Below are positions 3,579 to 17,113 of a stretch of 64,000 bases of DNA, one piece after another; within the stretch, counting starts at the first letter, position 1, and each line of letters begins with the position of its first letter. Location: positions 1-64,000 of the forward strand of contig JANQLT010000081.1 in assembly GCA_028280455.1 (NCBI GenBank). Reading direction: 5' to 3'. Origin of the DNA: Kiloniellales bacterium. Lineage in GTDB: Bacteria > Pseudomonadota > Alphaproteobacteria > Kiloniellales > JAKSDN01. A program made the translations under genes and the position numbers. A model generated the notes under the pieces. It saw nothing but the letters and a program-made list of their open reading frames with translations, was not told the DNA's origin and searched no databases.

Positions 3579-3947
3579 TCAGTCGTACTTGATGTAGGCG
3601 AAGCGCGGGTCGGTCGGTGTGCCGTCGAGGGCGCCGGACTCGGCGCCCGGCTGCCAGGCGACCACGTCCTCGATCTTGCGGGCCAGCTCGAAGTCCTTGT
3701 CGGTGATGCCGCCGGCGTCGTGGGTGTTCAGGGAGACCTCGACCCAGGGGAAGGAGGCGGCGATGTCCGGGTGGTGCCAGGCCGCCTCGGAGAGGTGGCC
3801 GACGGTGTTGATCACCATCAGCGTGGCCTTCCAGCCGTGAGTCTGATAGCGGCGGCGGATGGCGCCGTCTTCGAGGCGCCATTTCGGCAGCTCGCCGGCG
3901 AGGCGGGCCTCGACCTCGTCGTCGCTGTAGGTCTTGGCGCCGCTCAT
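3579..3947 (-). CDS. phhB: Pterin-4a-carbinolamine dehydratase
   Basis: A 122-residue protein of normal family length. It carries the PCD/DCoH core: GWKATLMVINTVGHLSEAAWHHPDI with the catalytic His pair (WHHPD), then VEVSLNTHDAGGITDKDFELA with the third conserved His. It dehydrates 4a-hydroxytetrahydrobiopterin to quinonoid dihydropterin, classically recycling the cofactor of aromatic amino-acid hydroxylases. Its ATG overlaps the stop of folB (ATGA), so the two are translationally coupled. No phenylalanine hydroxylase is in the window, so the partner reaction may be elsewhere, or the enzyme may serve the pterin-related cluster to the right. Confidence 0.93.
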   Translation of the reverse strand: MSGAKTYSDDEVEARLAGELPKWRLEDGAIRRRYQTHGWKATLMVINTVGHLSEAAWHHPDIAASFPWVEVSLNTHDAGGITDKDFELARKIEDVVAWQPGAESGALDGTPTDPRFAYIKYD

Positions 3948-4408
3948 GAGGGGCCCGCGGGTCGGACGCCGCCCCCGGCGGCCACGTCGCTGCGCCGGCG
4001 GCGGTGGATCTCGACGCCGACGCCGGCGGCATCCGGCTCGATGTCCGGCTTCTCGACGCGGATGGTGGCGCTGACCACGCGCTCGTCGCGCAGGCAGAGC
4101 TTGGCGATACGCTCGGCCAGGGTCTCGACCAGCTTGATGTGGCCCTGGTCGACGATCTTGCGGATGCCCTCGACGATCTCCTCGTAGGACACGACCGAGG
4201 AGATGTCGTCGTCGCTGGCCGGCGTGCGCTTGTCGACCCGCAGCTCGACGTCGATCTTGACCCGCTGCGGCGCCAGGTGCTCGTGGGCGTGGATGCCGAT
4301 GCTGGCGCGCAGGATCAGGTCCCGGATCAGCAGGCGGTCGTGGCGCAAGCCCCGCTCCAGGGCCTCGCTGTCGCCCAGGCGGAGCGAGAAGAGATCGTCG
4401 TCGGGCAT
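3944..4408 (-). CDS. folB: Dihydroneopterin aldolase
   Basis: The ATG at 4408 (MPDDDLFSLRLGD) gives 154 residues; a longer in-frame extension to 4477 is GC-rich and unlike the family. FolB features seen: DRLLIRDLILRASIGIHAHEH, an Ala/Val-Ser-Tyr segment (SSVVSYEEIVEGIR), and the active-site region KLVETLAERIAKLCL with the conserved Glu. It converts 7,8-dihydroneopterin to 6-hydroxymethyldihydropterin and glycolaldehyde in folate synthesis. The C-terminal ~25 residues are basic and Gly/Pro-rich and go beyond the usual ~120-residue domain. It is the first gene of a folB-phhB operon and divergent from the ligase gene at 4562. Confidence 0.9.
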   Translation of the reverse strand: MPDDDLFSLRLGDSEALERGLRHDRLLIRDLILRASIGIHAHEHLAPQRVKIDVELRVDKRTPASDDDISSVVSYEEIVEGIRKIVDQGHIKLVETLAERIAKLCLRDERVVSATIRVEKPDIEPDAAGVGVEIHRRRRSDVAAGGGVRPAGPS

Positions 4409-4561
4409 CGGCCGGCTCTCTCGAAGCTCATCGGACCCCGGGAGCCTAAGCGATCGGAGGGGGCTCCGGCAACGCAACAGAAAGCATGACCTGTTATCAC
4501 CGGGGCATGGCGCCTGCTAAGCTGCGCCGAGCCGTCCCGAAGCCCCGAAAGGCCCCGTTTC

Positions 4562-5941
4562 GTGCTGGATCTGCATTCCCATACCAAGGGGGTCGCCTGG
4601 CCCTCCTTCCCGAACACCTTCGCGATGCCGGTCTACGCGATCCTGTTCCAGCTCGAGCACAGCCAGTGGTTCCCGCCCGAGGCCCTGCTGGAGATGCAGT
4701 TCCGGCAGCTCCGGACCCTGCTCGCCCACGCCGCCCGGAGCGTGCCCTTCTACGAGAAGCGCTTCGAGAGCCTGGACGAGGCGGCGATCGAGGCGCTCGA
4801 CCCGGAGAGCTGGCGCGAGCTGCCGATCCTGACCCGGGCCGACATCCAGGATGCCGGCCAGGATCTGCGCAGCGACCGGCTCCCCACGAGCCACGGCAAG
4901 ACCGGCGAGATCTTCTCGGTCGGCGGCAACGGCCAGCCGATCCGCGTGCTGCGCAGCCAGATCTGGAGCTACTACCGGGCCGCCGCGACCATGCGCAGCC
5001 ACCTCTGGCACGGCCGCAACCTCAAGGGCAAGCTGGCGGCGATCCGCGAGACCAACCGGGGCAAGCACCTCTATCCGCGCGGCACCGATGCCCGGGGCTG
5101 GAGCCAGATCACCCGCGAGATCTTCAACAACGGCCCCGGCGTGGCGCTCAACGTCAACACGCCGGTGCCGATGATGGCCCGCTGGCTGCAGCGGCAGGAT
5201 CCCGACTACCTCTTGAGCGCGCCCGGCGTCATCGGGCCGCTGGCCGACTACTGCCGGGCCAATCACATCCTCCTGCCGCGCCTGCGCCAGGTCGAGACGA
5301 ACTCCGAGATCGTCGACGACTCGCTGCGCGAAGCCTGTCGCGAGGCTTGGGGCGTGCCCTTGGTCGACAGCTACAGCACGCGCGAGGCCGGCCACTTGGC
5401 CCTGCAGTGCCCGGAGCAGCGCCACTACCACGTGCAGTCGGAGTGCGTCTATCTGGAGGTCCTGGACGAGGCGGGGCGGCCCTGCCGGCCCGGCGAGACC
5501 GGCCGGGTCGTGGTCACCGCGCTGCACAACCTCGCCATGCCGCTGATTCGCTACGAGATCGGCGACCTGGCCGAGGTCGGCCCGCCTTGCCCCTGCGGCC
5601 GCGGCCTGCCGGTGCTCAAGCGCATCGTCGGCCGGCGCCAGAACAAGGTGCTGATGCCGAACGGCGAGACCCGCTGGCCGCTGCTGACCTCGGAGGCCGT
5701 CGCGGAGCTGCTCGAGGTCGCGCCGATCCGCCAGTATCAGCTCGCCCAGATCGGCCACGACGCGCTCGAAGCGCGCCTGGTGATCGACCGGCCGCTGGAA
5801 TGGACCGAGGAAGAGCGCCTGCAGGCCTGGGTCGCCGAGTGGCTCTACCGGCCCTTCGAGGTGACGGTCACCTACCACCAGGACCTGCCGCGCACGGCCG
5901 ACGGCGGCTTCGACGACTTCGTCTGCGAGCTGCCGCGGTGA
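4562..5941 (+). CDS. Phenylacetate-CoA ligase/CapK-type adenylate-forming enzyme
   Basis: A GTG start gives 459 residues; an in-frame ATG at 4625 is an alternative. The protein aligns in pattern with the PaaK/CapK branch of the ANL superfamily: an N-terminal SVPFYEKRFE and LPILTRADIQ, a shortened phosphate-loop region near residue 117 (GEIFSVGGNGQPIR), a central STREAGHLALQCPE, and the C-terminal PLIRYEIGDLAEVG with the conserved Asp and a CPCGRGLPVLKRIVGR segment. It probably activates a carboxylate as an adenylate; the acceptor is unknown. It is the first gene of a three-gene operon joined by GTGA overlaps to the creatininase and RibD-type genes, so it likely acts in the same pathway. Confidence 0.85.
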   Translation: MLDLHSHTKGVAWPSFPNTFAMPVYAILFQLEHSQWFPPEALLEMQFRQLRTLLAHAARSVPFYEKRFESLDEAAIEALDPESWRELPILTRADIQDAGQDLRSDRLPTSHGKTGEIFSVGGNGQPIRVLRSQIWSYYRAAATMRSHLWHGRNLKGKLAAIRETNRGKHLYPRGTDARGWSQITREIFNNGPGVALNVNTPVPMMARWLQRQDPDYLLSAPGVIGPLADYCRANHILLPRLRQVETNSEIVDDSLREACREAWGVPLVDSYSTREAGHLALQCPEQRHYHVQSECVYLEVLDEAGRPCRPGETGRVVVTALHNLAMPLIRYEIGDLAEVGPPCPCGRGLPVLKRIVGRRQNKVLMPNGETRWPLLTSEAVAELLEVAPIRQYQLAQIGHDALEARLVIDRPLEWTEEERLQAWVAEWLYRPFEVTVTYHQDLPRTADGGFDDFVCELPR

Positions 5942-6747
5942 CCGAGCTGCCGCCGAGCGGGGCTTGGGGCGAGCGCACGACACGCGACTTCGACGGCCTG
6001 GATCCCGAGGCGGTGATCGCGCTGCTGCCGCTCGGGGCCACCGAGCAGCATGGGCCGCACCTGCCGCTCGACACCGACAGCGCCATCAACGCCGCCGTCG
6101 TGGCCCGCACCTTGGCGCGTCTGCCAGACGGTCTCAGCCTGCAGGTGCTGCCGATGCTGGCCGTCGGCGACAGCGGCGAGCATGCCGACTTCCCCGGCAC
6201 CCTCGACCTGGAGCCGGAGACCGCGATCGCGCTCTGGAGCGAGATCGGCGCCGGCGTGGCGCGGGCGGGACTGCGCAAGCTGGTGCTGTTCAACAGCCAC
6301 GGCGGCCAGACGCAGATCGTCGACATCGTCGCCCAGCGCTTGCGCCGGCGCCACAAGATGCTGGTGGTGCGCGCCAACATCTTCGACTTCGGCCTGCCGC
6401 AAGGCGCGATCGGCGCCGAGGAGGTGGCCCACGGCATCCATGGCGGCGCGCTCGAGACCTCGATGATGCTGGCCATCGCGCCGGAGCGGGTACGCCTGGA
6501 GCAGGCCAAGGACTTCGTGCCCCTGTCGCGGCGCCTGGCCCAGGACCACGCGCTGCTCGGCACCGAGCGGCCGGTCGGCATCGGCTGGCAGAGCCAGGAC
6601 CTGCATCCCGAGGGCGCCTGCGGCGACGCGACGCAGGCCGATGCCGAGACCGGCGAGCGGCTGCTCGACTATCTGGCCGAGCGCCTGGCGCTGCTGCTGC
6701 ACGAGCTGCGCCACACGCCGCTCAGCATCCTGCGCGATCACCCGTGA
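5938..6747 (+). CDS. Creatininase-family metallohydrolase
   Basis: The GTG at 5938 overlaps the upstream stop (GTGA), giving 269 residues. Metal-ligand motifs of the creatininase fold are intact: LPLGATEQHGPHLPLDTD (Glu, His, Asp), GEHADFPGT (His), NSHGGQ (His) and GGALETSMM (Glu). The family includes creatininase, mycofactocin MftE, and the archaeal ArfB deformylase that acts just after GTP opening in F420/riboflavin synthesis. Because a RibD-type reductase follows with another GTGA overlap, an ArfB-like amidohydrolase role on a pyrimidine or pterin precursor is more likely than creatinine breakdown. That assignment is inferred from context. Confidence 0.87.
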   Translation: MTELPPSGAWGERTTRDFDGLDPEAVIALLPLGATEQHGPHLPLDTDSAINAAVVARTLARLPDGLSLQVLPMLAVGDSGEHADFPGTLDLEPETAIALWSEIGAGVARAGLRKLVLFNSHGGQTQIVDIVAQRLRRRHKMLVVRANIFDFGLPQGAIGAEEVAHGIHGGALETSMMLAIAPERVRLEQAKDFVPLSRRLAQDHALLGTERPVGIGWQSQDLHPEGACGDATQADAETGERLLDYLAERLALLLHELRHTPLSILRDHP

Positions 6748-7523
6748 CGGCCCTCGACGCCGAGGCCGTCTGGCGTCTGCTGCTCGATGGCGGCTCGTTC
6801 GGCCTCGAGGGGCAGGCGCTGACGGAGGCGGCGGTGCGCTTGGTCGCGCTCTACGGCCCCTTCGCTCGCGCCCGCGAGGACGGGATGACCGTGGGCCACC
6901 TCGGGCAGAGCCTGGACGGCATGATCGCCACCGCCGCCGGCCAATCGCACTACGTCACCGGCCCGGAGAACCTGGAGCACCTGCACCGCATGCGCGCGCT
7001 GGCCGACGCGGTGATCGTCGGCGCCGGCACCGTGGCGGCCGACGACCCGCGGCTCACCGTGCGCCGGGTCGAAGGGCCGAACCCGGTGCGCGTGGTGATC
7101 GATCCGCGCGGACGGCTCGCATCGGGCCATCGCGTCTTCACCGATGGGGCCGCCGAGACCCTGGTGGTCGCTCGGCAAGCCGGTCCGGTCGAGACGCTGG
7201 TCTTGGTGGACGAGGCCGGAGAGATCTCGCCGCCGGCCATCGTCGCCGCGCTGCGGGCGCGGGGCCTGCGGGCTCTGTTCGTCGAGGGCGGCGGCGACAC
7301 GGTTTCCCGGTTCCTGCGCGCGGGCGCGCTCGACCGTCTGCAGATCGCCGTCGCGCCCTTCGTGATGGGCGCGGGGCGGCCCGGCTTGTCACTGCCGGGC
7401 ATCGACGACCTGGCGGCCGTCGCCCGGCCGGCGAGCAAGGTCTATCCCATGGGCGCCGACGTGCTGTTCGACTGCGATCTCAGGACGGCCGCCAGGCCAG
7501 CAGATCGCGGTGGCCGATCCTGA
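6744..7523 (+). CDS. RibD C-terminal (pyrimidine reductase/DHFR-like) domain protein
   Basis: The GTG at 6744 (GTGA overlap) gives 259 residues. An unassigned N-terminal ~55 residues precede a RibD C-terminal reductase domain: VGHLGQSLDGMIAT, DAVIVGAGTVAADDPRLTVR, NPVRVVIDPRGRL, and the NADPH-site LFVEGGGDTVSRFL near residue 175. No deaminase zinc motif is present, so it resembles stand-alone reductases such as ArfC/RIB7 rather than bifunctional RibD. These reduce the ribosyl side chain of a diaminopyrimidine to a ribityl chain. It is the last gene of the ligase-creatininase-reductase operon. Its 3' end overlaps the convergent methyltransferase by 44 bp. Confidence 0.85.
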   Translation: MTALDAEAVWRLLLDGGSFGLEGQALTEAAVRLVALYGPFARAREDGMTVGHLGQSLDGMIATAAGQSHYVTGPENLEHLHRMRALADAVIVGAGTVAADDPRLTVRRVEGPNPVRVVIDPRGRLASGHRVFTDGAAETLVVARQAGPVETLVLVDEAGEISPPAIVAALRARGLRALFVEGGGDTVSRFLRAGALDRLQIAVAPFVMGAGRPGLSLPGIDDLAAVARPASKVYPMGADVLFDCDLRTAARPADRGGRS

Positions 7524-8268
7524 CCCGGCTGTCGCCGGCTTCGATGATTGCGCGCCGGCGTTCCTGCCAGCCCGCGACATCGAGATCGGACGTGGCCTCC
7601 GCCGCCGCGTCAGCCTGGCCGGCGAGCAGCGCTTCCTGCAGGGCGGCCTCGTCCGCGCCGAGCTGCCAGTCGCTGCGCGCGGCCCGGACCTGGTAGCCGG
7701 CGCGCTGCAGCAGCCGCTCGGCCGTCTGCGCCGCCTCGCTGCCGAGCGCCGGGCCGAAGCCCTTGTCGCCGCGTTGATGCCGGCGGAAGGCGGCGAGCAC
7801 GGCCTCGTCCTCGGGATCGGTCGGCGACCAGGCGACGCGGCCATCGACCGTCAGGGCGACGTGCAGCAATGCGCGGGTGGGGCGGCAGGCGGCGATCAGC
7901 GTCTCCAGCCAGGGCGTCGAGACCAGGTCGAGCAGGGCCGAGGCCGTCACCAGGTCGGCCTGCTCCAGCCCGATGCCGCTGAGGTCGCGCGCCAGGTCGC
8001 GCACCAGGGGCGTGATGCCGGCCCGGGGCAAGGCCTCGGCTAGCGCCAGCAGCGCCGCGTCCCGCTCGACCAGCAGCCAGTGCTGCGGCCGGGCCAGCAA
8101 GGGTGCCAGGAAGCGCAGGTTGGCGCCGCTACCGGCGCCGAGATCGACGACCTTGAGCCGGGGTCGCCGGTCGAGCAGGGCGCGGACCTGTCGGCAGAGA
8201 CCGGCATGGCGCGCCCGTCGGTCGGCCGGCTCGCGCAAGGCCAGCCAGTCGGCGGTGAAGTCGCTCAT
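7480..8268 (-). CDS. Class I SAM-dependent methyltransferase
   Basis: A 262-residue protein with the Rossmann motif I VVDLGAGSGANLRFLA near residue 40, the acidic beta2 end LVERD near 68, and ADLVTASALLDLVST as motif IV/post-IV. The substrate-binding C-terminus is not diagnostic. It is the last gene of the seven-gene minus-strand operon; its ATG overlaps the glycosyltransferase stop (ATGA). It overlaps the convergent RibD-type gene tail-to-tail. It may methylate the pterin-like or glycosylated product of this cluster. Substrate not determined. Confidence 0.85.
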   Translation of the reverse strand: MSDFTADWLALREPADRRARHAGLCRQVRALLDRRPRLKVVDLGAGSGANLRFLAPLLARPQHWLLVERDAALLALAEALPRAGITPLVRDLARDLSGIGLEQADLVTASALLDLVSTPWLETLIAACRPTRALLHVALTVDGRVAWSPTDPEDEAVLAAFRRHQRGDKGFGPALGSEAAQTAERLLQRAGYQVRAARSDWQLGADEAALQEALLAGQADAAAEATSDLDVAGWQERRRAIIEAGDSRVRIGHRDLLAWRPS

Positions 8269-9314
8269 GGCAGGAGCGCCGCCAAGGCGGCCGCGAACCT
8301 GGCGCCGCTGTCCCGCCAGCTCGGCAGCGCCTCGCGGGCGCGCCGGGCCGCCGCGGCGAGATCGGCGTGCGCGGCCGGGTCGGCGATCAGCGGGCGCAGC
8401 GCCTCGGCCAAGGCCGGCGGGTCGTTCGGCGGCACCAGCCGGGCCGCCTTGTCCGGCAGGGCTTCGGGGATCGCGCCGGCCGCCGTGGCGACGATGGGCA
8501 GGCCACGCATCAGGGCCTCGGTCAGGACCATGCCGTAGCCTTCGTGGTGCGAGGCCAGGACGAAGAGATCGGCGCCGTTGTAGAGACGGTTCAAGGCGGG
8601 CTCATCGGCCTCGCCCAGCCAGTCGATACGATTGCCGAGGCCATGCGTGGCGACGAGTGTGTGCAGTCGCTCCGCGCAGCCCGGGTCGCGCGTGTCGCTG
8701 CCGGCGCAGCGCAGGCGCCAGGGGTGGTCCCGCAGCCTCGCCAGGGCCTCGATCAGCACGGCGTGGCCCTTGCGCGGCGTCAGGCTGGCCACGCAGAGCA
8801 GCAGGGGCGCCGCCTCGCCGGAGCCCCTCGCCAAAGGTGCCGGCTCGACGCCCGGCTCGGCGACGCGGATGCGCTCGGCCGGCACGCCGTAGTCGCGCAG
8901 GCCGAGTGCCGTGTGCCGGCTGGTCGTGACGACCCCGGCAACTTGCGACAGTGCCGCGCGCTCGCTGTCGAAGAGGCGCGCGCTGGTCGCCGCATCGAGT
9001 CCGGTCTCCTCGGCGAGCGGATGGTGGACCAGGGCGATCAGGCGGAGGCGTTCGCTGTGTAGCGCGACTTCCGTCGGCAGAACACCGAGCGCCAGGCCGT
9101 CGATCACCACGGCGGCGCCGTTCGGCAGCGTGGCGAGCAGGTCCGCCGCCGCGGCGCGCGCGGTTTCGTTCGGGAAGGGGAAGCCGTTGGGCAGGGCATG
9201 CTCCGTGGCGCTCCAGCCGGCGTCGCGGAGCGCGGCGACGACGCGCCGGTCGTAGAGGAAGCCGCCGCTGCGGGTCTCGGGATCGCCGGGCAGCACGAAA
9301 TGCAGGGAGCGCAC
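8265..9314 (-). CDS. GT4-family glycosyltransferase
   Basis: A 349-residue GT-B fold enzyme. The N-terminal half starts SLHFVLPGDPETRSGGFLYDRR. The C-terminal nucleotide-sugar domain has VASLTPRKGHAVLIEAL near residue 200 and the family signature HHEGYGMVLTEALMRGLPIVATAAGAIPE with the EX7E-type glutamates. There is no signal peptide, so it is likely cytosolic. It sits 6 bp downstream of the PTPS homologue and is coupled to the methyltransferase. Glycosylation of a small metabolite is a reasonable inference, since no polysaccharide export genes accompany it. Confidence 0.87.
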   Translation of the reverse strand: MRSLHFVLPGDPETRSGGFLYDRRVVAALRDAGWSATEHALPNGFPFPNETARAAAADLLATLPNGAAVVIDGLALGVLPTEVALHSERLRLIALVHHPLAEETGLDAATSARLFDSERAALSQVAGVVTTSRHTALGLRDYGVPAERIRVAEPGVEPAPLARGSGEAAPLLLCVASLTPRKGHAVLIEALARLRDHPWRLRCAGSDTRDPGCAERLHTLVATHGLGNRIDWLGEADEPALNRLYNGADLFVLASHHEGYGMVLTEALMRGLPIVATAAGAIPEALPDKAARLVPPNDPPALAEALRPLIADPAAHADLAAAARRAREALPSWRDSGARFAAALAALLP

Positions 9315-9320
9315 GCCCGC

Positions 9321-9725
9321 CTAGCGCTCCAGCGGGCCTTCGTAGGCGGCCCAAGCGAGGTGGGATTCCCGCAGGCTCACCTTCATGGAGTCCAGGTCCT
9401 TGGCGCCGGGGCCGAGCGCGCCCTCGGCGATGGCCGCGGCCAGGCGGTCGAAGACCAGGCGGGCCAGGAACTCGGTCGTGGTGTTCTCGCCGGCGAGCTC
9501 GGGCAGCGAGTCCAGGTTCTGGTAGTCGAGCGGTGCCAGCACGGCGCGCAAGGTCTCGCGGGCGCGGCCGATGTCGACCACGATGCCGTCGGCGTCCAGA
9601 TCGGCGCGGCGAAACGCGACGTCGACGATGTAGGTCGCGCCATGCAGGCCTTGTGCCGGGCCGAAGACCTCGCCGCTCAGGCTGTGCGCGATCATCATGT
9701 GGTCGCGGACGGTCACGCTGTACAT
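9321..9725 (-). CDS. 6-pyruvoyltetrahydropterin synthase/QueD-family protein with altered active site
   Basis: A 134-residue protein with the T-fold pattern of the PTPS/QueD family: RDHMMIAHSL (first zinc His), LHGATYIVDV, VVDIGRARETLRAVLAPLDYQNL, the NTTTEFLA segment with the conserved Glu, and SLRESHLAWAAYEG. The catalytic Cys that precedes HGH by four residues in QueD/PTPS is Ala here, and the second His of HGH is Ala (HGAT). The enzyme therefore lacks the usual catalytic nucleophile and one zinc ligand. It probably binds a pterin-like substrate but should not perform the standard reaction. It lies 3 bp after the MDR dehydrogenase and 6 bp before the glycosyltransferase. Confidence 0.85.
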   Translation of the reverse strand: MYSVTVRDHMMIAHSLSGEVFGPAQGLHGATYIVDVAFRRADLDADGIVVDIGRARETLRAVLAPLDYQNLDSLPELAGENTTTEFLARLVFDRLAAAIAEGALGPGAKDLDSMKVSLRESHLAWAAYEGPLER

Positions 9726-9728
9726 GGC

Positions 9729-10706
9729 TCAGGTCCCGTAGCGGATGCGGTGGCAGAGCACGCCCGGCGGGTCGCCGGCGAGCTGCTGCATCAGCGCGGG
9801 CAGCTCGGCGAAGGGGCTCTCGCCGGAGATCAGCAGATCGAAGCGCGAGTCGGCGAGCAGCGCCAGGGCGAGGGCGAGCCGGCGCCGGTGGCTCCAGCGC
9901 GCGCGCCGCTCGGGCGGCAGCCGCGAGACCTGCGAGCTGCGGATGGTCAGGCGCTTGGCGTGGAACTCGGCGCCCAGGGGCAGGCCGACCGTGCAGTCGC
10001 CGTACCAGCTCAGCTCGACGATGCGCGCCTCGGCACCGGCCAGGGACAGCGCCGTGACCAGGCCGCCCGGATCGCCGCTGGCGTGAAACACCAGGTCGAG
10101 GTCGTGCGGCGCGGCCTCGGGCTGGGCGAAGCCGAGCCCCAGGGTCTCGGCGATGCCGGCCTTCCCGCCTTGGCGGTCGACCAGGGTCACTTGGCAGCCC
10201 GGCACCTCGGCGGCCAGGGCCGCGACGAGGCAGCCGACCGTGCCGGCGCCGATCACGGCGATGCGGTCGCCGGGCCCGGGCGCGCCGTCCCACAGGCCGG
10301 TGACGGCGGTCTCCATGTTGGCGGCGAGCACGGCCCGTTCCGGCGGCAGCGCCTCGGGCAGCGGCAGCAGCTCGTGGGCCGCGACGACGTAGGCGTCCTG
10401 GTGCGGGTAGAGGCAGAAGACGGCGCGGTCCCGCAGCGCCGCCGGGCCGGCTTCGACCCGGCCGACGTTGGCGTAGCCGTACTTGACCGGGAAGGGCAGC
10501 TCGCCGGCCTGGTGCGGCGCGCGCATGCTGGCGGCCTGGCTTTCCGGGACGCGCCCGGCGAAGACCAGGGTCTCGCTGCCGCGGCTGATGCCGCTGTAGA
10601 GCGTGCGCACCAGGGCCTCCTCGGGCCCGGGCTCGGGCAGGGGCTCGCGGCGGATCTCGCCGCGGCCCCGGGCGACGCTCCAGAATGCCTGCGCCTCGTG
10701 GCTCAC
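9729..10706 (-). CDS. Medium-chain (zinc-type) alcohol dehydrogenase-like oxidoreductase
   Basis: A 325-residue MDR-superfamily protein. The N-terminal GroES-like segment contains YSGISRGSETLVF and KYGYANVGRVE. The Rossmann NAD(P) site is IAVIGAGTVGCLVAALAAEV near residue 150, followed by VTLVDR. The classic catalytic-zinc Cys/His pattern (GHE) is not visible, and the four-Cys structural zinc loop is absent; the sequence resembles the branch that includes BchC. It overlaps FkbM upstream (ATGA) and the PTPS homologue follows 3 bp later. Likely oxidises or reduces an alcohol on the cluster metabolite. Confidence 0.82.
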   Translation of the reverse strand: MSHEAQAFWSVARGRGEIRREPLPEPGPEEALVRTLYSGISRGSETLVFAGRVPESQAASMRAPHQAGELPFPVKYGYANVGRVEAGPAALRDRAVFCLYPHQDAYVVAAHELLPLPEALPPERAVLAANMETAVTGLWDGAPGPGDRIAVIGAGTVGCLVAALAAEVPGCQVTLVDRQGGKAGIAETLGLGFAQPEAAPHDLDLVFHASGDPGGLVTALSLAGAEARIVELSWYGDCTVGLPLGAEFHAKRLTIRSSQVSRLPPERRARWSHRRRLALALALLADSRFDLLISGESPFAELPALMQQLAGDPPGVLCHRIRYGT

Positions 10707-11497
10707 GGGGCGAGCTGGGCGTAGACGTCGCCCGAGCGGGAGCCCGGCGGCAGGCTGTCGAGCGCCGCCCGCAGGCCGGCGGCGTCGCGCCAGACTGCGA
10801 AGCGCAGGCGCGGCCGCTCGCCCAGGCTGAGGTTGAAGCGATAGTCGCCCAGCGCGGCGAGGCGGTCGAGGCAGGCCCGGGCGACCGGCAGCGCCGCCGG
10901 CAGCACCTCGAAGCAGAGCCGGGGCAGGGGCCGGCTCAGCCCGGCCAGGACCTCGGCTTCCGCGCCCTCGACGTCGATCTTGCAGAAGGCCGGCAGGCCG
11001 TGGCGCTCGATCAGAACGTCGAGCGTCGTGGTCTCGACCGGCAGGCGGCCGTCCCAGGCGACGCCGGCGAAGCCCTCGGTCGGCTTCACCCGCGCGATCC
11101 AGGACTCCGAGAGCGTCGAGACCGTGGGCGTCGCCGTGCTGGTGTGGAGCACCGCCCGCCCCGGCCGCGCGCCCAGCGCCAGCCTCGACAGCGTGACGTC
11201 GTCGCGCCGGCCGTAGAGCCGCCGCAGGAAGGCCGCGAAGTCCGGCTGCGGCTCGACCGCGACGACCCGTGCGCCGAGCGACAGCCAGGCCGCCGTGTGG
11301 TTGCCGAGATGGGCGCCGATATCGAAGCAGAGATCGCCCGGCTCGACGAAAGGCCGGTAGAAGGCGACCCGCTCGCGCTGCCGCCAGGGCCTGAGGCGAT
11401 AGATCGCCAGGGAGCGGGCAAAGCCGGCCCAGCGCCGCAGGCTCGTGCCCGCGCCCCCCGGTGCCGTCTTTGCCGCCTCTGCCGCGAGCGTCGCCAT
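10703..11497 (-). CDS. FkbM-family methyltransferase
   Basis: A 264-residue protein with the FkbM methyltransferase layout: CFDIGAHLGNHTAAWLSLGARVVAVEPQPDF (motif I plus acidic beta2), a middle ETTTLDVLIERHGLPAFCKIDVEGAEAEVLAGL with the characteristic DVEGAE, and a C-terminal beta-rich part. The family O-methylates sugars, polyketides and lipids. It sits 2 bp after yceI and overlaps the dehydrogenase start, within the minus-strand operon. Together with the class I methyltransferase at 7480 it provides two methylation steps for the pathway. Confidence 0.87.
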   Translation of the reverse strand: MATLAAEAAKTAPGGAGTSLRRWAGFARSLAIYRLRPWRQRERVAFYRPFVEPGDLCFDIGAHLGNHTAAWLSLGARVVAVEPQPDFAAFLRRLYGRRDDVTLSRLALGARPGRAVLHTSTATPTVSTLSESWIARVKPTEGFAGVAWDGRLPVETTTLDVLIERHGLPAFCKIDVEGAEAEVLAGLSRPLPRLCFEVLPAALPVARACLDRLAALGDYRFNLSLGERPRLRFAVWRDAAGLRAALDSLPPGSRSGDVYAQLAP

Positions 11498-11499
11498 GG

Positions 11500-12087
11500 C
11501 TACTGCTTGATCGCCTCCAGCTCGATGATGACCTGCACCTCGTCGCCGACGAAGCCGTTCTCGACGGCGTAGGTCATGCCGAAGTCGCTGCGCTTGATCG
11601 TGGTGCGCGCCGAGATGCCGAGCACCGGCCGCTTGTGGCCGAAGGGATAGACGCCGGACTTGTTCAAGGTGACGTCGAGCGTCACCGGCCGCGTGACGCC
11701 GAGCAGGGTCAGGTCGCCGGTGACCGTGCCGGCCGTGTCGCTGCTCGGCGTGGCGGCGGTGCCGACGAAGACGATCTCGGGGTGGTCGTCGACGTCCAGG
11801 AAGTCGGCGTTGCGGACATGCTCGTCGCGCTTGTCGTGGTTCGAGAAGATGCTCTCCGCCTCGATCACGACCTCGAGGTCCGACAGGCTTTGCGTCGCCT
11901 CGTCGTAGCGGAAGCTGCCTTCCACCTCGAGGAACTGGCCCAGCGTATCGGCGTAGCCGATGTGCCGGACCAAGAAGGCGACGGCGACATGCTCTTCGTC
12001 GATCTCGTAGAGCGCCGGCTCCGCCGAGGCCGGGGCGGCGAGCAGCAGGCCGGTAGCGAAGGCGAGCGCCGATACGCGCAGCGTCAT
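11500..12087 (-). CDS. YceI-family periplasmic lipocalin-like protein
   Basis: The ATG at 12087 gives 195 residues. An N-terminal signal peptide (ALAFATGLLLAAPASA) is followed by the YceI domain: YEIDEEHVAVAFLVRHIGYAD, SNHDKRDEHVRNADFLDV, FVGT..., and TRTTIKRSDFGM-like C-terminal strands. YceI proteins form a lipocalin-like barrel that binds isoprenoid or amphipathic ligands in the periplasm. Its ATG overlaps the CDP-alcohol phosphatidyltransferase stop. A periplasmic binding protein inside this operon suggests that a lipophilic or exported intermediate is involved; this is inference. Confidence 0.9.
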   Translation of the reverse strand: MTLRVSALAFATGLLLAAPASAEPALYEIDEEHVAVAFLVRHIGYADTLGQFLEVEGSFRYDEATQSLSDLEVVIEAESIFSNHDKRDEHVRNADFLDVDDHPEIVFVGTAATPSSDTAGTVTGDLTLLGVTRPVTLDVTLNKSGVYPFGHKRPVLGISARTTIKRSDFGMTYAVENGFVGDEVQVIIELEAIKQ

Positions 12088-12833
12088 GTAGTGCTCCTGT
12101 TCCTGATGAGCCAGAGGAGGTCGAGGCCGAAGGAGGCGCTGAGGGCGGCCAGGCCGAGGCCGGCGAGCCAGGGCGCCAACAAGGGAGATAGGCTCGGCGC
12201 CAGGCAGGCGATCAGCAGCACGGCCTGGACCACGAAGACCGCCTTGCGGCGGCCGCTCGGCGGCAAGGGACGGCGCAGCGCCGGCCAGAGCAGGACGGCG
12301 GCGACGAAGCCGTAGCGCCAGAGGCCGGCGAGCAGGATCCAGGGTCCGGCCTTGCCGACCGCCGCGACCAGCAGGGCCAGCACCAGCATGAAGAGGGCGT
12401 CGGCCTCCAGGTCGAAGCGGGCGCCGAAGCCTGACGCCTCGCGGTAGCGCCGGGCCAGCCAGCCGTCGAAGCCGTCGAGGACCAGGGCCGCCGTGGCCAG
12501 CGCGACCAGGCTCCAGGCGAGCGCCCCGCTCCAGGGCTGCGCGACCAGGGCGGCGGCCAGCACGCAGGTGAAGGCCAGGCGCGTGGCGGTGACGGTGTTG
12601 GCGCGGCCGAAGCGCCGGCCCGGCAGCCAGCGCGGCAGCAGCGCGAGCAGCGGCGCCGCGCCGAGCAGGAAGAGCAGCGCGGCCGTCAGCGGAAAGGCCG
12701 GCCCGAGGCCGCCGGCGTGGCCGATCGCCGCGCCGATGCCGAGCGCCAGCAGCGCGCCGGCGCCGAGGCCCAGAGTCGCGCTGGCGCGCAGGCTGCGCTG
12801 GCTCGGCAGGTCGGGGACTCGCAAGGACGCCAT
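12084..12833 (-). CDS. CDP-alcohol phosphatidyltransferase family membrane protein
   Basis: A 249-residue polytopic protein, first gene of the minus-strand operon. The family motif is complete: DGFDGWLARR then GARFDLEADA, matching D-x2-D-G-x2-A-R-x(7-8)-G-x3-D-x3-D. About six hydrophobic helices surround it. Such enzymes transfer a phospho-alcohol between CDP-activated lipid and an alcohol acceptor. It is longer at the N-terminus than typical PgsA (~185 residues), with two extra helices before the motif. The acceptor is unknown. Its placement with YceI, and divergent from the sulfatase-like enzyme at 12898, suggests membrane-linked or phosphodiester chemistry. Confidence 0.87.
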   Translation of the reverse strand: MASLRVPDLPSQRSLRASATLGLGAGALLALGIGAAIGHAGGLGPAFPLTAALLFLLGAAPLLALLPRWLPGRRFGRANTVTATRLAFTCVLAAALVAQPWSGALAWSLVALATAALVLDGFDGWLARRYREASGFGARFDLEADALFMLVLALLVAAVGKAGPWILLAGLWRYGFVAAVLLWPALRRPLPPSGRRKAVFVVQAVLLIACLAPSLSPLLAPWLAGLGLAALSASFGLDLLWLIRNRSTT

Positions 12834-12897
12834 GGCAGGGGCATTCTAGCCTCGAAGCGGCGGCAAGGGCCATGGCGGATCAGGGACTTACGGAAAG

Positions 12898-14544
12898 GTG
12901 ATGGCGGATTCGGGAGCGTCATCGCGCGGCCCGGCGGGCGTCCTCTGGGCGCTGCTCGCGCTGTTCTGGCTCAACGCCAGCTTGAGCTTCCAGAACCTCT
13001 GGCCGACGCCTTGGGTGCGCCTGGTGCCCGAGCTCGCGGCCGAGCTCTTCGCGGTCCTGGCGCTCTGCGGCCTCGCCGGTCTCGCTCGATGGCGTATCGG
13101 CGCATGGATGCTCCGCGTGCTGGCCCTGGTCTGGCTGCTGGGGATCGTGCTGCGCTATGTGGAGGTGACCGCCGGTCCCCTGTTCGGCCGACCGCTCAAC
13201 ATCTATTGGGACCTGGACCACGTGCCGAACCTGCTGGTGCTGTTCTGGCAGGCCGCGGGACCGGTCCAGTTCAGTCTTGCCGCCCTCGGCCTGCTCCTGC
13301 TTCTCGCGCTTCTCTACAAGCTCAACCTCGCCGCCTTGCGCGTGCTGGCGGCGGCGCGCGGTGGTGCTGCGGTCCTGTTCGCTTTGCTCGGGCTTCTGGG
13401 GCTGGGCGCCTACGCCACCATCTACCTGCCGGGGACCACGGCGGTTCGGTCGGCCTTCGCGATCCCCGCCCCGCTGATCGCCGCCAAGCACATCGGCTTC
13501 GCGCGCGATGTGTGGCGCTTGAAGGCGGCCGGCCCGGCCGCGCTCGACGCGCTCTTCGGTCCGGCGCCGGAGGTGACCGCCGACCTTGCCGGCTACGGCG
13601 GCGAAGACGTCACCGTCGTGTTCCTGGAGTCCTACGGCACGACGCTGTTCGACCACGAGAAGCACTGGCCCGCGGCGGAGCCGGCCTTCCGCGCCTTCCA
13701 GGCGCGCGTGTCGGAAGCGGGCTGGCACGCGGTCTCGCGCCGCCTGGTCTCGCCGACCTTCGGCGGCGGCTCCTGGTGGGCACACGGCACGCTGCTCAGC
13801 GGCGTGTCCCTGGCCGACCAGACCGCCTACAGCCTCTACCTGGCCAGCGGCCGCGAGACGCTGGTGCACCGCTTCAAGCAGGCCGGCTACCGCGCGCTCG
13901 CTTTTCAGCCCGGCATCCAACGCGCCTGGCCCGAGGGCGCCTTCTTCGGCTTCGACGAGATTCGGGACGCGGCGGCGCTCGACTACGCCGGGCCGGCCTT
14001 CGGCTACTGGCGCATCCCGGACCAGGTCACCTTGCAGCGCTATTCGCGGGCGGCGGCCGATGGCGAGTCGCCGCTCTTCGCCCTGGTCGTGCTGATCATG
14101 AGCCACATGCCGTTCCAGCCCTTGCCGCCCTATCACGCCGACTGGTCCCGGCTCGACGAGACGCCGCCCTACGACCCGGCGGCGGCCGAGGCCGTCAACG
14201 CGACGCCGCCGGACTGGAGCGATCTCAATGGCGCCTACGTCGCGGCCATGGGCCATCTGCACGTCATGCTGGGCGACTGGCTGGCCGAGCAGGTGACGCG
14301 CCCCGGGCTGGTCGTGCTGATCGGCGACCACCAGCCGCCGGCGCTGGTGGCGGGCGAGAAGCAGCCCTGGACCGTGCCGATCCACATCCTCGCCAAGGAT
14401 CCCGCGCGCCTGGCGCCCTTCGAGCGGCTGGGCTATCGGCCGGGGCTGTTCCCGCAGCCGGGCAGCGAGCAGCCGATGGCCCGGGTCTTCGAGGACTTGC
14501 TCAAGGCCGGGGATTCGCGTAGCGCAGGCGGCGCCGCCCGGTGA
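12898..14544 (+). CDS. Sulfatase/LTA-synthase-like membrane enzyme
   Basis: A 548-residue protein. About four N-terminal membrane helices (residues 14-190) precede an extracytoplasmic alkaline-phosphatase-superfamily domain. Motifs: VVFLESYG (metal Glu), SPTFGGGSWWAHGTLLSG with the Ser/Thr nucleophile region near residue 290, IMSHMPF, and VVLIGDHQPP (metal Asp-His). This order matches LtaS/OpgB-type phosphoglycerol transferases and related sulfatases. It starts 64 bp from the divergent CDP-alcohol phosphatidyltransferase. Its end overlaps the convergent GH17-GT2 gene by 44 bp. It could add phosphoglycerol or phospho-alcohol groups to a periplasmic glucan, or hydrolyse a phospho/sulfo ester; sequence alone does not decide. 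Confidence 0.82.
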   Translation: MMADSGASSRGPAGVLWALLALFWLNASLSFQNLWPTPWVRLVPELAAELFAVLALCGLAGLARWRIGAWMLRVLALVWLLGIVLRYVEVTAGPLFGRPLNIYWDLDHVPNLLVLFWQAAGPVQFSLAALGLLLLLALLYKLNLAALRVLAAARGGAAVLFALLGLLGLGAYATIYLPGTTAVRSAFAIPAPLIAAKHIGFARDVWRLKAAGPAALDALFGPAPEVTADLAGYGGEDVTVVFLESYGTTLFDHEKHWPAAEPAFRAFQARVSEAGWHAVSRRLVSPTFGGGSWWAHGTLLSGVSLADQTAYSLYLASGRETLVHRFKQAGYRALAFQPGIQRAWPEGAFFGFDEIRDAAALDYAGPAFGYWRIPDQVTLQRYSRAAADGESPLFALVVLIMSHMPFQPLPPYHADWSRLDETPPYDPAAAEAVNATPPDWSDLNGAYVAAMGHLHVMLGDWLAEQVTRPGLVVLIGDHQPPALVAGEKQPWTVPIHILAKDPARLAPFERLGYRPGLFPQPGSEQPMARVFEDLLKAGDSRSAGGAAR

Positions 14545-17113
14545 GCGCCGGTGCCGCGCCGAGCAGCGCCATCGCCAGGGCGGCGAGATAGGGCAGGGAC
14601 TGCACCAGCAGCAGCAGCGCCCAGAGCTGCGCTGCCGGCTCATGGGCGCCGCGCGCCGCGACGATGCCGAGCGCGGCCGACCAGAGCCCGGTGAGCAGGG
14701 CCAGCTCCTCGCGCACGCTGTGCAGCGCCGCGGCCAGGCCCGGCGGTCGCTCGGCCTTGGGAGTCCGCTGGAAGGGCCAGGGCCGGCCCGCCAAGCCGCG
14801 CCAGACCGCCTTGGCCACGCCGTGCGACAGCGCGACGCCGGCCAGCGCCGCGCCGAGCGCGCCGAGCAGGCCGCTGCCGACCCGCGCCTGGTAGAGCCAG
14901 AGCAGCTTGGCGAGCTTGAAGCCGACGTAGCCCAGCACGGTCGCCACGAAGAGGCCGAGCGGGAAGTGGAAGTGGCCGGGCAGGGCGATCAGGCCGAAGG
15001 TCCAGAACAGGGCGAAGAGGCTGACCGCCAAGTGCAGGCCGTCGGCCAGCCAGGGCAGCCAGCCGGCCAGGTAGTGGTAGCGCTGGCCGAAGGACAGGCC
15101 GCGCCCCGGCCGGGCCAGCAGGGCGCCGGCATGGCCGCGGAGGATCTGCATGGCGCCGTAGGCCCAGCGGAAGCGCTGCTGGCGATAGGCCCGGAAGCTG
15201 TCGGGCAGCAGGCCGCGGCCGAAGCTCTCGACGACGTAGGCGCTGCGATGGCCTTCGGCCGCCAGGCGCAGGCCGAGCTCGGCGTCCTCGCAGAGGCACC
15301 ATTCGCCCCAGCCGCCGACGGCCTCGAGCGCCCGGCGGCTGAGCAGGGCCATGGTGCCGTGCTGGATGATCGCGTCGCGCTCGTTGCGCTGGACCATGCC
15401 GAGCCGGAAGAAGCCGGCGTACTCCCAGAAGCAGAGCCGCTTGAACAGGCTGGCCGGCGCGTCGCGCTGGTCCTGCGGCGCCTGCACCAGGGCAAGGCGC
15501 GGGTCCTCGAACAGCGGCACCAGCCGGCGCAGCCAATCGGGCTCGACCTCATAGTCGCTGTCGAGGACCGCGACGATCTCGCTTTGCGGCCGGGAGCGGG
15601 CCAGGGCCTCGTTGAGGGCGCCCGCCTTGAAGCCCGGCCGGTCGCCGAGCCGCAGGAAGCGGAAGCGCGCGCCGAGCGCGCGGCAGTGCGCCTCGACCGG
15701 CCGCCAGAGCGAGTCGTCCGCCGTGTTGTTCTCGACCACGAGCACCTCGACGTCCGGATAGTCGAGCCGCGCCAGCGCGTCCAAGGTGGCGATCACCATG
15801 GCCGGGGGCTCGCTGCGGATCGGCAGGTGGATGGAGACCGGTGGGCAGTCCTGGTCCGCCGCCGGCGCCGCGGGCTCGAAGCGGCGGCGCCAGCGGCGAG
15901 TCCAGAGGCATTCGATCAGCTCCAGGCCCTCGGTCAGGGTCAGCACCAGCAGCAGCAGGAAGGCCGAGCCCATCACCGCCAGGAGGCCGACGCTCAGGTG
16001 GTTCAGGTAGCGGGTCTCGTGCAGCAAGGTGGCCCAGAGCGCGAGCTGGGCCGAGGCGATGACCAGACAGGCCAGGAGCGCGCGGCCCGGCAGGCGCACG
16101 TGGCGCAGGCGCTGCATCAGCAGCAGCGCGAGCAGGGCGGCGGCCAGCAAGGTTGCCGCGGTCGGAACCTGCCAGCCCGGCAGGTTGACCAGGGGGCCCT
16201 GGAGGCTGGCCTTGCTGCGCCGCTCGGCGTCGTGCAGGCCCCAATAGGCGCCGCTCGGGCCTTCCAGCACCATCTTCCAGGGCTGATCGAAGGCCTCGAT
16301 GACGTAGTAGTCGAGGCCGCGCGCCTCGGCCCGGGGCAGGAACCGGCGCAGGAAGATCCCCTGATTGACCTTCGAGGGACGGGCCGCGCCGCGCGGCGTG
16401 CCGTCGCTCGGCCAGCCGACCTCGGTCAGCACCACCTGCTTGCCGGGGAAGGCGGCGCGCAGCTCCTCGGCGCGGGCCAGCACGTAGTCGGCCGCGGCCT
16501 CGACGGGCAGGCCTTCCCAGTAGGGCAGGACGTGGGCGGCGACGAAGTCGACCTCCTCGGCCAGTCGCGGGTTGGCCAGCCAGACGTGCCAGGGCTCGGA
16601 GGTGCTGACCGGCACCGCGGCCTCGCGGCGCAGCGCCCGCAGCAGGTCGATCAGGCGGCCGAGGGCGATGTCGCCGCGCAGCATGGTCTCGTTGCCGGCG
16701 AGGATGCGCGTGACGTTGCCGTGGCGCCGGGAGAGCGCGACGGCTTGTTCGATCTCGCGGCGGTTGCGGGCCTCGTCGCGGCCGAGCCAGGCGCCGAGCG
16801 TCACCTCGAGGCCGTGGCGCTCGGCGAGGCGCGGCACCTCGGCGAGCGTACCCAGCGCGCCGTAGGTGCGCAGCGAGCCGGTCAGGCCGGCGGCGATCTC
16901 AAGGTCGGCCGCGATGCGCGCTTCGCTCGGCTGGTCGCCGTCGAGCGGCGACTCGCCGGCCGCAAAGGGACTGAAGGAGAGGCCGTCGAGCGGTTCCCGC
17001 CAGGGCGGCGCCTCGACCGGCCGGTTCAGCCAGGCGGCGGCGGACCAGACCGACAGGGCGATGAGCGCGACCGCCAGGAGGTCGCCGAGCGCGCCTCGGA
17101 GTTTCGCCATCAT
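14501..17113 (-). CDS. GH17-GT2 fusion, NdvB-like beta-glucan synthase candidate
   Basis: An 870-residue membrane protein. Order: an N-terminal helix (1-30); a GH17-like glucanase domain (about 40-300) keeping both catalytic glutamates in GNETML and TEVGWPSDG; two to three membrane helices (about 315-400); a GT2 cellulose-synthase-like domain with VLDSDYEVEPDW, a CEDAELGLRL motif and QQRFRWAYGAMQ (the QxxRW motif); then C-terminal helices. The same GH17+GT2 architecture occurs in Pseudomonas NdvB, required for cyclic beta-(1,3)-glucans. It probably polymerises glucose from UDP-glucose across the inner membrane with a linked remodelling domain. Product and linkage are inferred. Confidence 0.85.
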   Translation of the reverse strand: MMAKLRGALGDLLAVALIALSVWSAAAWLNRPVEAPPWREPLDGLSFSPFAAGESPLDGDQPSEARIAADLEIAAGLTGSLRTYGALGTLAEVPRLAERHGLEVTLGAWLGRDEARNRREIEQAVALSRRHGNVTRILAGNETMLRGDIALGRLIDLLRALRREAAVPVSTSEPWHVWLANPRLAEEVDFVAAHVLPYWEGLPVEAAADYVLARAEELRAAFPGKQVVLTEVGWPSDGTPRGAARPSKVNQGIFLRRFLPRAEARGLDYYVIEAFDQPWKMVLEGPSGAYWGLHDAERRSKASLQGPLVNLPGWQVPTAATLLAAALLALLLMQRLRHVRLPGRALLACLVIASAQLALWATLLHETRYLNHLSVGLLAVMGSAFLLLLVLTLTEGLELIECLWTRRWRRRFEPAAPAADQDCPPVSIHLPIRSEPPAMVIATLDALARLDYPDVEVLVVENNTADDSLWRPVEAHCRALGARFRFLRLGDRPGFKAGALNEALARSRPQSEIVAVLDSDYEVEPDWLRRLVPLFEDPRLALVQAPQDQRDAPASLFKRLCFWEYAGFFRLGMVQRNERDAIIQHGTMALLSRRALEAVGGWGEWCLCEDAELGLRLAAEGHRSAYVVESFGRGLLPDSFRAYRQQRFRWAYGAMQILRGHAGALLARPGRGLSFGQRYHYLAGWLPWLADGLHLAVSLFALFWTFGLIALPGHFHFPLGLFVATVLGYVGFKLAKLLWLYQARVGSGLLGALGAALAGVALSHGVAKAVWRGLAGRPWPFQRTPKAERPPGLAAALHSVREELALLTGLWSAALGIVAARGAHEPAAQLWALLLLVQSLPYLAALAMALLGAAPALTGRRRLRYANPRP

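Follow-up and report, generated by a model that had tools for sequence, protein, structure and literature searches.

The first 64,000 nucleotides of contig JANQLT010000081.1, from a Kiloniellales bacterium (assembly GCA_028280455.1), were analyzed as one stretch, here called the window. Between positions 3579 and 14544 it carries genes that an earlier reading of the letters alone (the original prediction) had taken for a biosynthetic cluster making a glycosylated, methylated metabolite derived from a pterin or pyrimidine. At the center of this region lies a gene for a PTPS-fold (T-fold) protein predicted to bind a pterin or pyrimidine (9321-9725, minus strand; PF01242, 1.5e-24). On the same strand it is preceded by the gene for an MDR-superfamily dehydrogenase resembling BchC (9729-10706; NCBIfam BchC match 1.3e-11, below cut-off), and followed by genes for a GT4 glycosyltransferase (8265-9314; PF00534, 6.1e-32) and a class I S-adenosylmethionine (SAM) methyltransferase (MT; 7480-8268; weak Pfam match). 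The MT gene overlaps tail to tail with a plus-strand gene for a RibD-type reductase domain protein, corresponding to the C-terminal domain of RibD (6744-7523; PF01872). The PTPS homolog, MDR, MT and RibD-type proteins form the core of the cluster described below, and GT4 is near-universal in it.

Further genes lie around this group. Upstream of the MDR gene, also on the minus strand, are two accessory genes, for an FkbM-type methyltransferase (10703-11497; TIGR01444 above cut-off) and a YceI-like protein (11500-12087; PF04264, 1.5e-42), and a frequent member, a CDP-alcohol phosphatidyltransferase (CDP-OH; 12084-12833; PF01066, 4.6e-16). The plus strand holds two more accessory genes. One encodes a creatininase-family hydrolase, a predicted AFRPP/FAPy formamidase of the BrbF/ArfB kind (5938-6747), and the other a membrane protein of the sulfatase/alkaline-phosphatase superfamily, predicted to be an LtaS/EptA-type transferase of phospho-head groups (12898-14544; PF00884, 3.6e-07; the phosphotransferase below). 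Every gene named in the original prediction is present at its place, and the tight coupling it described is real. The CDP-OH and YceI genes share an ATGA overlap, the FkbM/MDR and GT4/MT pairs overlap by 4 bases each, and gaps of 3 and 6 bases separate MDR from PTPS and PTPS from GT4. The creatininase-type gene is joined by GTGA overlaps to a ligase gene before it and to the RibD-type gene after it, the latter starting with GTG.

Conservation and distribution of the cluster

We used the PTPS homolog as sole query and took the best 80 of at least 152 matches as named genome loci (best-segment identity 55-71%), together with 18 strong hits from a set of 58 genomes, the window's own included. After L109 and L110 had been dropped, being on the same contigs as L026 and L029, 96 loci including the window were available. 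In 63 of them the sequence extends 9 kb or more to both sides of the PTPS gene; these were tabulated, and neighbors were scored within about 10 kb. Cluster families were scored by hidden Markov models grown on the loci from window proteins (from L034 for GTP cyclohydrolase II (GCH II) and a flippase-like protein), and weak members are undercounted. Loci that share a genus (Micromonospora, Marinobacter, Salinicola) do not count as independent, and L080 and L084 are nearly identical.

MDR and GT4 genes were found near the PTPS gene in 63/63 loci, and MT and RibD-type genes in 60/63 each. CDP-OH followed in 53/63, the flippase-like LPG_synthase_TM in 44/63 and GCH II in 36/63, and the remaining families were less frequent (phosphotransferase 27/63, YceI 23/63, creatininase-type 20/63, the glucosyltransferase OpgH 18/63, FkbM 14/63). 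The order and strand of MDR-PTPS-GT4 were constant in all 83 loci that extend 1.6 kb to either side; outside this set, no GT4 gene was found beside PTPS in the small clusters L143 and L093. The original prediction had looked to co-occurrence in relatives for its test, and the MDR-PTPS-GT4-MT-RibD genes with CDP-OH do occur together across four phyla. By record titles, several of which denote metagenome-assembled genomes (MAGs), the loci span Actinomycetota, Pseudomonadota and Gemmatimonadota, with one Acidobacteriota MAG. It had also proposed looking for a GTP cyclohydrolase among the neighbors; the linked enzyme is of type II, not type I. The most compact version encountered was MDR-PTPS-MT-RibD, in Rhodobacteraceae SC52 (L143), which has no envelope genes. 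This suggests that these four proteins make the core compound and that the others decorate or place it, barring help from elsewhere in the strain.

The borders first proposed were correct only in part. The core is real and widespread, but phhB, folB and an AMP-binding ligase were each found in 1/63 loci, the window itself, and in no other, and we rejected them as members of the conserved cluster. Conversely, the LtaS/EptA-like, GCH II and flippase-like genes had been missed. Since the same procedure finds none of the three former genes in other loci, they can serve as an internal control. phhB (3579-3947) and folB (3944-4477) lie on the minus strand, and the ligase gene (4562-5941; PaaK/F390-synthetase-like, Pfam 24.2 bits, below the cut-off of 29.9) on the plus strand. 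The ligase is probably lineage-specific, though translationally coupled to the creatininase-type gene. Beside phhB is a HupE/UreJ-type gene (2308-2907) within a stretch of lower G+C (0.65). Neither a linked GTP cyclohydrolase gene nor a flippase-like gene was found in the window cluster; both are frequent in the clusters of relatives.

Whole genomes gave a similar picture. In a set of 58 genomes, the window's own included, 18 had strong PTPS matches and 4 more had weak matches only (about 30% identity). MDR (E <= 1e-30) was present in exactly the 18 PTPS-carrying genomes (18/18 vs 0/40; p 2e-15; these p values ignore relatedness). CDP-OH was found in 12/18 PTPS-positive vs 1/40 PTPS-negative genomes (p 2e-7), the phosphotransferase in 7/18 vs 1/40 (p 7e-4), and the creatininase-type protein (E <= 1e-15) in 12/18 vs 7/40. 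Of 150 genomes drawn from the window's phylum, 11 have this PTPS type (E <= 1e-25), including the window's own and G010. Both PTPS and MDR were absent from the six genomes of the window's own family (G001-G006; two only about 70% complete), so the distribution is patchy. In a quick tree of MDR plus PTPS (94 rows), Actinomycetota, Gemmatimonadota and Betaproteobacteria each formed one group (support 97-100), Gamma- and Alphaproteobacteria split into several, and the window's branch had no firm placement. This pattern is compatible with an ancient unit that has undergone some transfer or loss.

Plasmid copies provided independent annotation. We examined 11 of 20 matching plasmid records (L136-L146), kept outside the 63- and 96-locus tables, and found MDR beside PTPS in 8/11. 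On Agrobacterium pAt the public names are sulfatase, flippase-like protein, CDP-alcohol transferase, RibA, zinc-binding alcohol dehydrogenase, 6-carboxytetrahydropterin synthase, GT4, methyltransferase and RibD. The same set appears under database names in Peteryoungia, Methylosinus pOB3b1, Streptomyces fungicidicus and Thiodictyon, and RibA or GTP cyclohydrolase II is thus named next to the cluster by annotators other than ourselves.

Several neighboring frames are joined in frame without a stop: CDP-OH/phosphotransferase in 6/98 loci (L041, L067, L075, L089, L092, L102), CDP-OH/YceI in three (L026 and L029, both Kiloniellales by record title, and L107), GT4/MT in nine Marinobacter loci, GT4/flippase-like in L092, and GCH II/RibD-type in three Pseudonocardia loci. 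Some of these may be chance read-through in high-GC genomes rather than true fusions. By annotation and phmmer, a cytochrome b gene lies near the cluster in several lineages (L137, L139, L141; L028, L047, L052); together with YceI it hints at a redox role.

The T-fold protein has lost the catalytic residues of PTPS

The closest structure to the PTPS homolog is SCO6650 of Streptomyces coelicolor (PDB 3d7j, 2.2e-48 over residues 1-130), far ahead of the structures of true PTPS enzymes (3e-4) and of QueD (8e-3). The residue roles named here are those of PTPS, read across the aligned columns. The catalytic Cys position is Ala in 96/96 homologs (FGKC of PTPS 1b66 aligns with FGPA), the catalytic His position is Tyr, Phe, Leu or Met in 96/96 (LDHKNLD of 1b66 becomes LDYQNLD), and the catalytic Asp is kept in 3/96. 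The third zinc-binding His is replaced by Ala in 96/96, the HGH of PTPS and QueD aligning with HGA, while the other two are kept in 96/96. Also retained in 96/96 is the Glu of a C-terminal ESH motif, which may be the equivalent of the ring-binding Glu near the C-terminus of PTPS; pairwise alignments to PTPS end before this motif. Where the function of a T-fold protein is known, its ligand is a pterin or a pterin-like ring. A 2008 study of the SCO6650 structure reportedly found the protein to lack zinc, a catalytic triad and PTPS activity.

The window homolog is the sole PTPS-family match in its genome, and QueC was not found there above cut-off (one match, 20.9 bits; cut-off 22). With no second PTPS match and no QueC over the cut-off, queuosine is unlikely to be the homolog's job. 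The QueD model itself scored 44.4, where 89.25 is required. The original prediction had counted the homolog among pterin and pyrimidine enzymes; the PTPS fold stands, but on these residues and scores we rejected it as a PTPS or QueD enzyme.

Public annotation of the PTPS homologs of L136, L138, L139 and L141 reads 6-carboxytetrahydropterin synthase, with a queuosine Gene Ontology term, despite the replaced catalytic residues. Judged by sequence, this label is likely a database misannotation for the SCO6650-type subfamily. The subfamily also has a second context: in three Streptomyces plasmid loci (L140, L144, L145) a lone SCO6650-type PTPS lies near cupin, MBL-fold, MEKHLA or YbaB genes and BTAD regulators.

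The dehydrogenase, methyltransferase and RibD-type reductase

The usual ligand motifs of zinc-dependent MDR proteins are CGSD and GHExxG. In the cluster MDR these are replaced: SRG[TS]E stands in 95/95 sequences and KYGY in at least 92/95 per column, and a sub-threshold piece of the PDB comparison aligned C-GSD with S-RGSE. The label of zinc-binding dehydrogenase is therefore doubtful. In the PDB the MDR matches sorbitol dehydrogenase, among other alcohol dehydrogenases. The AlphaFold model of the MT (pLDDT confidence score 96) has a generic class I methyltransferase fold, and structure comparison gave no informative relative.

Of 82 RibD-type members, 32 were scanned; the RibD_C domain was present in 32/32 and a deaminase domain in 0/32, and two were joined to a cyclohydrolase. 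The window's genome has another RibD-type gene (a 425-aa frame, contig C47), two GCH II genes (C33, C97) and three GTP cyclohydrolase I (GCH I) genes, all on contigs other than the window's. The three GCH I matches (C82, C103, C127; L126-L128) have near-equal scores of 245-248 bits, and an extra copy could be explained by assembly contamination, rated 4.93%.

GTP cyclohydrolase II and the creatininase-type protein

The creatininase-type protein scored below cut-off with the NCBIfam MftE, creatininase and ArfB models, and its PDB matches are creatininases. The motifs EQHG, TD, HGG and ET, the metal-ligand motifs of this family, are conserved in 20 sequences. SCO6655, a Met-type GCH II in which the active-site Tyr is replaced by Met, is said to stop at the formylated pyrimidine (FAPy). 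In one report SCO6655 is named GTP cyclohydrolase II and its expression opposes modelled flux (r -0.61; SCO2687 -0.52) (PMC2853524).

Among linked GCH II proteins the active-site Tyr was present in 44/48 genome loci and three plasmid loci (47/53). The exceptions carry Met (L066, L138, L142; all Streptomyces), His (L073), Ile (L103) or Ser (L046). A creatininase-type gene stood beside 5/6 non-Tyr and 10/47 Tyr-type GCH II loci, five plasmid loci included (p 0.005, uncorrected, like the following values, for relatedness or for loci cut short). Smaller tallies gave 3/4 vs 10/44 for genome loci (p 0.055) and 4/5 vs 10/46 with three plasmid loci added (p 0.017); when the genome loci were restricted to those with 7 kb of sequence on either side, the counts were 3/4 vs 10/35. 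A strict rule, in which the creatininase-type gene occurs only where the cyclohydrolase lacks Tyr, was rejected on the 10/47 Tyr-type loci that have the gene.

BrbF of Sinorhizobium meliloti, a member of the creatininase family, has been demonstrated to be an AFRPP formamidase making a riboflavin precursor; its gene neighbors as published are MarR and CobW genes, and according to that report the matching cyclohydrolase of BrbF-containing bacteria is still to be discovered (PMC9478397). The ArfB-like role that had been suggested for the window protein is strengthened by analogy with this formamidase of the same family. The Met-type GCH II beside the creatininase-type gene in Streptomyces is, on sequence grounds, a candidate for the missing pairing.

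Creatininase-type homologs outside the cluster (L129 in G048, L130 in G045 and L132 on contig C67 of the window's genome) have as neighbors NMT1/ABC transporter genes, MFS and DUF3179 genes, or a DUF2165 gene.

Envelope-type genes and periplasmic glucan synthesis

LtaP, LtaS, GacH, BcsG and EptC are enzymes that take phospho-head groups from phospholipids and transfer them onto glycans or lipids. The AlphaFold model of the phosphotransferase (pLDDT 89.8) combines the LtaS/EptA superfamily fold with N-terminal membrane helices. Its catalytic domain matches LtaP, LtaS and GacH at Z 20.5-22.3, and the five proteins together at Z 19.8-22.3 (root-mean-square deviation 3.3-5.6 A over 260-287 residues). 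At full length MCR-1 aligns over 428 residues (6.3 A) and EptA over 420 (6.2 A). Residues E244, S292, H403, D477 and H478 are invariant in 24 sequences and are candidates for the metal site and nucleophile, and a profile search of PDB sequences gave none at E 0.01. The CDP-OH protein matches its Pfam family and contains DG..AR...G...D...D, the CDP-alcohol phosphatidyltransferase motif; against PDB sequences it found none at 0.1.

The cluster is also linked to synthesis of periplasmic glucans, a link missed by the original prediction. OpgH, which adjoins the cluster in many Proteobacteria, is the periplasmic-glucan glucosyltransferase (mdoH in the annotation of L136). It was present (E <= 1e-40) in 17/18 PTPS-positive vs 18/40 PTPS-negative genomes (p 2e-4), and in 14 of these 17 it lies at most about 15 kb from a cluster PTPS, CDP-OH or creatininase-type gene on the same contig, a definition of nearness chosen after the coordinates had been seen. 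In G013 and G020 it is not near, and in G028 the genes are on split contigs. In G010 the RibD-FkbM-YceI-CDP-OH genes sit with OpgH, 65 kb from MDR-PTPS-GT4-MT. In locus L134 (G041, contig C25) FkbM, CDP-OH and LtaS/EptA-like genes lie together with a GT4 gene nearby, in a genome with no PTPS match.

No OpgH match was found in the window's genome at 1e-40. Beside the cluster there stands instead a gene for a GT2 protein with a sub-cut-off Pfam match to GH17 (14501-17113, minus strand), whose association with the cluster we infer. It has no homolog in the other loci at 1e-10, and from its sequence a glucan synthase is possible.

A proposed pathway and its alternatives

The cluster is not an artefact and is not explained by any known pathway that we found, and its product is probably derived from GTP and directed to the envelope. 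No paper describing it was found in full-text literature searches, judged by title and the start of the abstract and covering literature outside subscription. This multi-gene pathway, kept across phyla and with the solved but functionally unassigned structure 3d7j at its center, very probably makes one family of compounds. We tentatively favor, at somewhat short of even confidence, a conserved pathway that leads from GTP through a methylated, glycosylated pterin-like alcohol to an envelope lipid or glycan; the nature of the product and its envelope destination are our inference.

In such a pathway GCH II would open GTP to 2,5-diamino-6-ribosylamino-pyrimidinone phosphate, and the creatininase-family protein would remove the formyl group whenever the cyclohydrolase goes no further than the formylated intermediate. 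These reactions are published for the families, and it is their assignment here that is predicted. The window cluster, with no linked cyclohydrolase, would draw on one encoded elsewhere. The RibD-type reductase, having no deaminase domain, is expected from its family to convert the ribosyl to a ribityl chain and leave the 2-amino group in place. The MDR might then re-oxidize a side-chain hydroxyl, while the T-fold protein, having lost the catalytic residues of PTPS, might hold the 2-amino-4-oxo ring and, hypothetically, aid closure or isomerization. These steps would yield a pterin-like compound independently of GCH I, which the MT would methylate and the GT4 protein glycosylate. In the most speculative step, the CDP-alcohol transferase would load the product on a phospholipid, the flippase-like protein would move it, and the LtaS/EptA-like enzyme would hand the phospho-head group on to a glycan of the envelope, which in Proteobacteria may be the periplasmic glucan. 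The fullest form of this proposal, a GCH I-independent pterin route (a net Amadori rearrangement) combined with pterin-decorated envelope glycans, osmoregulated periplasmic glucans among them, is a long shot. The original idea that the genes jointly build a pterin-like compound survives in part, within other borders and with entry through GCH II rather than GCH I.

Several observations weigh against this proposal. The creatininase-type gene also lies beside 10/47 Tyr-type cyclohydrolases, which means that the formyl reasoning does not hold strictly. Its homologs in 7/40 genomes without the cluster indicate that this protein also serves elsewhere. GCH II is unlinked in 27/63 loci, the window included. 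Coupling of the ligase to the creatininase-type gene, with no counterpart in other loci, makes a window-specific step possible. The lack of GT4 beside PTPS in L143 and L093 means that the product need not be a glycoside, and 3/11 plasmid loci (L140, L144, L145) carry PTPS without any other cluster family. Sulfatases follow closely in the fold search of the phosphotransferase model (Z about 19, 2-3 below LtaS and level with MCR/EptA), so the protein may be a hydrolase. OpgH was found near the cluster in 0/24 Actinomycetota loci (counted within the loci), and a glucan is therefore unlikely to be the only destination. Finally, the presence of CDP-OH, phosphotransferase and FkbM genes without the core in L134 suggests that the envelope genes may form a module of their own.

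This last point leads to an alternative that we regard as somewhat unlikely, in which two independent modules share one neighborhood: a soluble pathway to a methylated pterin-like compound (MDR, T-fold protein, MT, RibD-type, cyclohydrolase/formamidase) and an envelope module decorating glycans with an ordinary phospho-head group (CDP-OH, LtaS/EptA-like, YceI, FkbM, OpgH). It would account for the small cluster L143 without envelope genes, for the envelope genes without a core in G041, and for the 65 kb between the two gene groups of G010. However, the RibD-type gene of G010 travels with the envelope genes and not with MDR-PTPS, and CDP-OH tracks the core both in genomes (12/18 vs 1/40) and in 22/24 Actinomycetota loci. 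Distinctly unlikely, in our judgement, is a product that is a ribityl-pyrimidine, lumazine-like or a deazapurine, lipid-bound or free, with MDR and T-fold proteins acting on the sugar chain only. The upstream enzymes would be identical, and the sorbitol and other alcohol dehydrogenases among the PDB matches of MDR agree with such a role, but the pterin or pterin-like ligands of characterized T-fold proteins and the C-terminal Glu motif kept in 96/96 PTPS homologs argue against this reading.

The RibD-type and creatininase-type genes could also form a second riboflavin branch like that of BrbF, the remaining cluster being unrelated. In its favor, the RibD domain belongs to the riboflavin type and BrbF makes a riboflavin precursor in Sinorhizobium (PMC9478397); we nevertheless consider this improbable, because the window's genome has another RibD-type gene (C47) and two cyclohydrolases elsewhere, because the cluster RibD-type protein has no deaminase domain and lies near MDR-PTPS in 60/63 loci, and because the published neighbors of BrbF are others. 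That the PTPS homolog is a QueD or tetrahydrobiopterin PTPS strayed into an unrelated glycan operon, as its automatic annotation would have it, is almost certainly wrong given the family-wide replacement of catalytic residues, the QueD score of 44.4 of 89.25, the lack of QueC over cut-off in the genome and the strict linkage to MDR.

A pathway from GTP to an envelope-bound pterin-like compound would connect the chemistry of GTP-derived rings with the cell envelope and with periplasmic glucans. For a PTPS subfamily now listed in databases as 6-carboxytetrahydropterin synthase, work on the cluster would provide a function, and the cluster genes supply a precise substrate list for testing.

Comparison with known systems

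BrbF and ArfB resemble the creatininase-type protein of the cluster, which belongs to the family of BrbF and would be expected to carry out the same reaction on a formylated pyrimidine (PMC9478397). It is placed there by family membership, and whereas the published neighbors of BrbF are MarR and CobW, the cluster copy adjoins the T-fold core. The early steps of riboflavin synthesis share GCH II and RibD reductase domains with the cluster, but the cluster RibD-type protein has no deaminase domain, and no lumazine or riboflavin synthase is among the annotated neighbors. With the LtaS/EptA transferases the phosphotransferase has the catalytic fold in common, with no PDB sequence match, and it differs in standing in frame with CDP-OH in 6 loci.

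PTPS-I/QueD, PTPS-II and PTPS-III (COG0720) share fold and family with the window PTPS homolog; these subfamilies are told apart by the HGH-motif region (PMC5041015), where the cluster homolog reads HGA in 96/96. SCO6650 (3d7j) is its ortholog, with the same active-site positions replaced in the alignment. The PDB calls SCO6650 an uncharacterized protein, and the multi-phylum gene neighborhood is added here. Cyanopterin and limipterin, the pterin glycosides of cyanobacteria and green sulfur bacteria, share the idea of a glycosylated pterin with our proposal. Their synthesis is said to start from GCH I, whereas the cluster would combine GCH II with a RibD-type reductase and with a T-fold protein that lacks the catalytic residues of PTPS.

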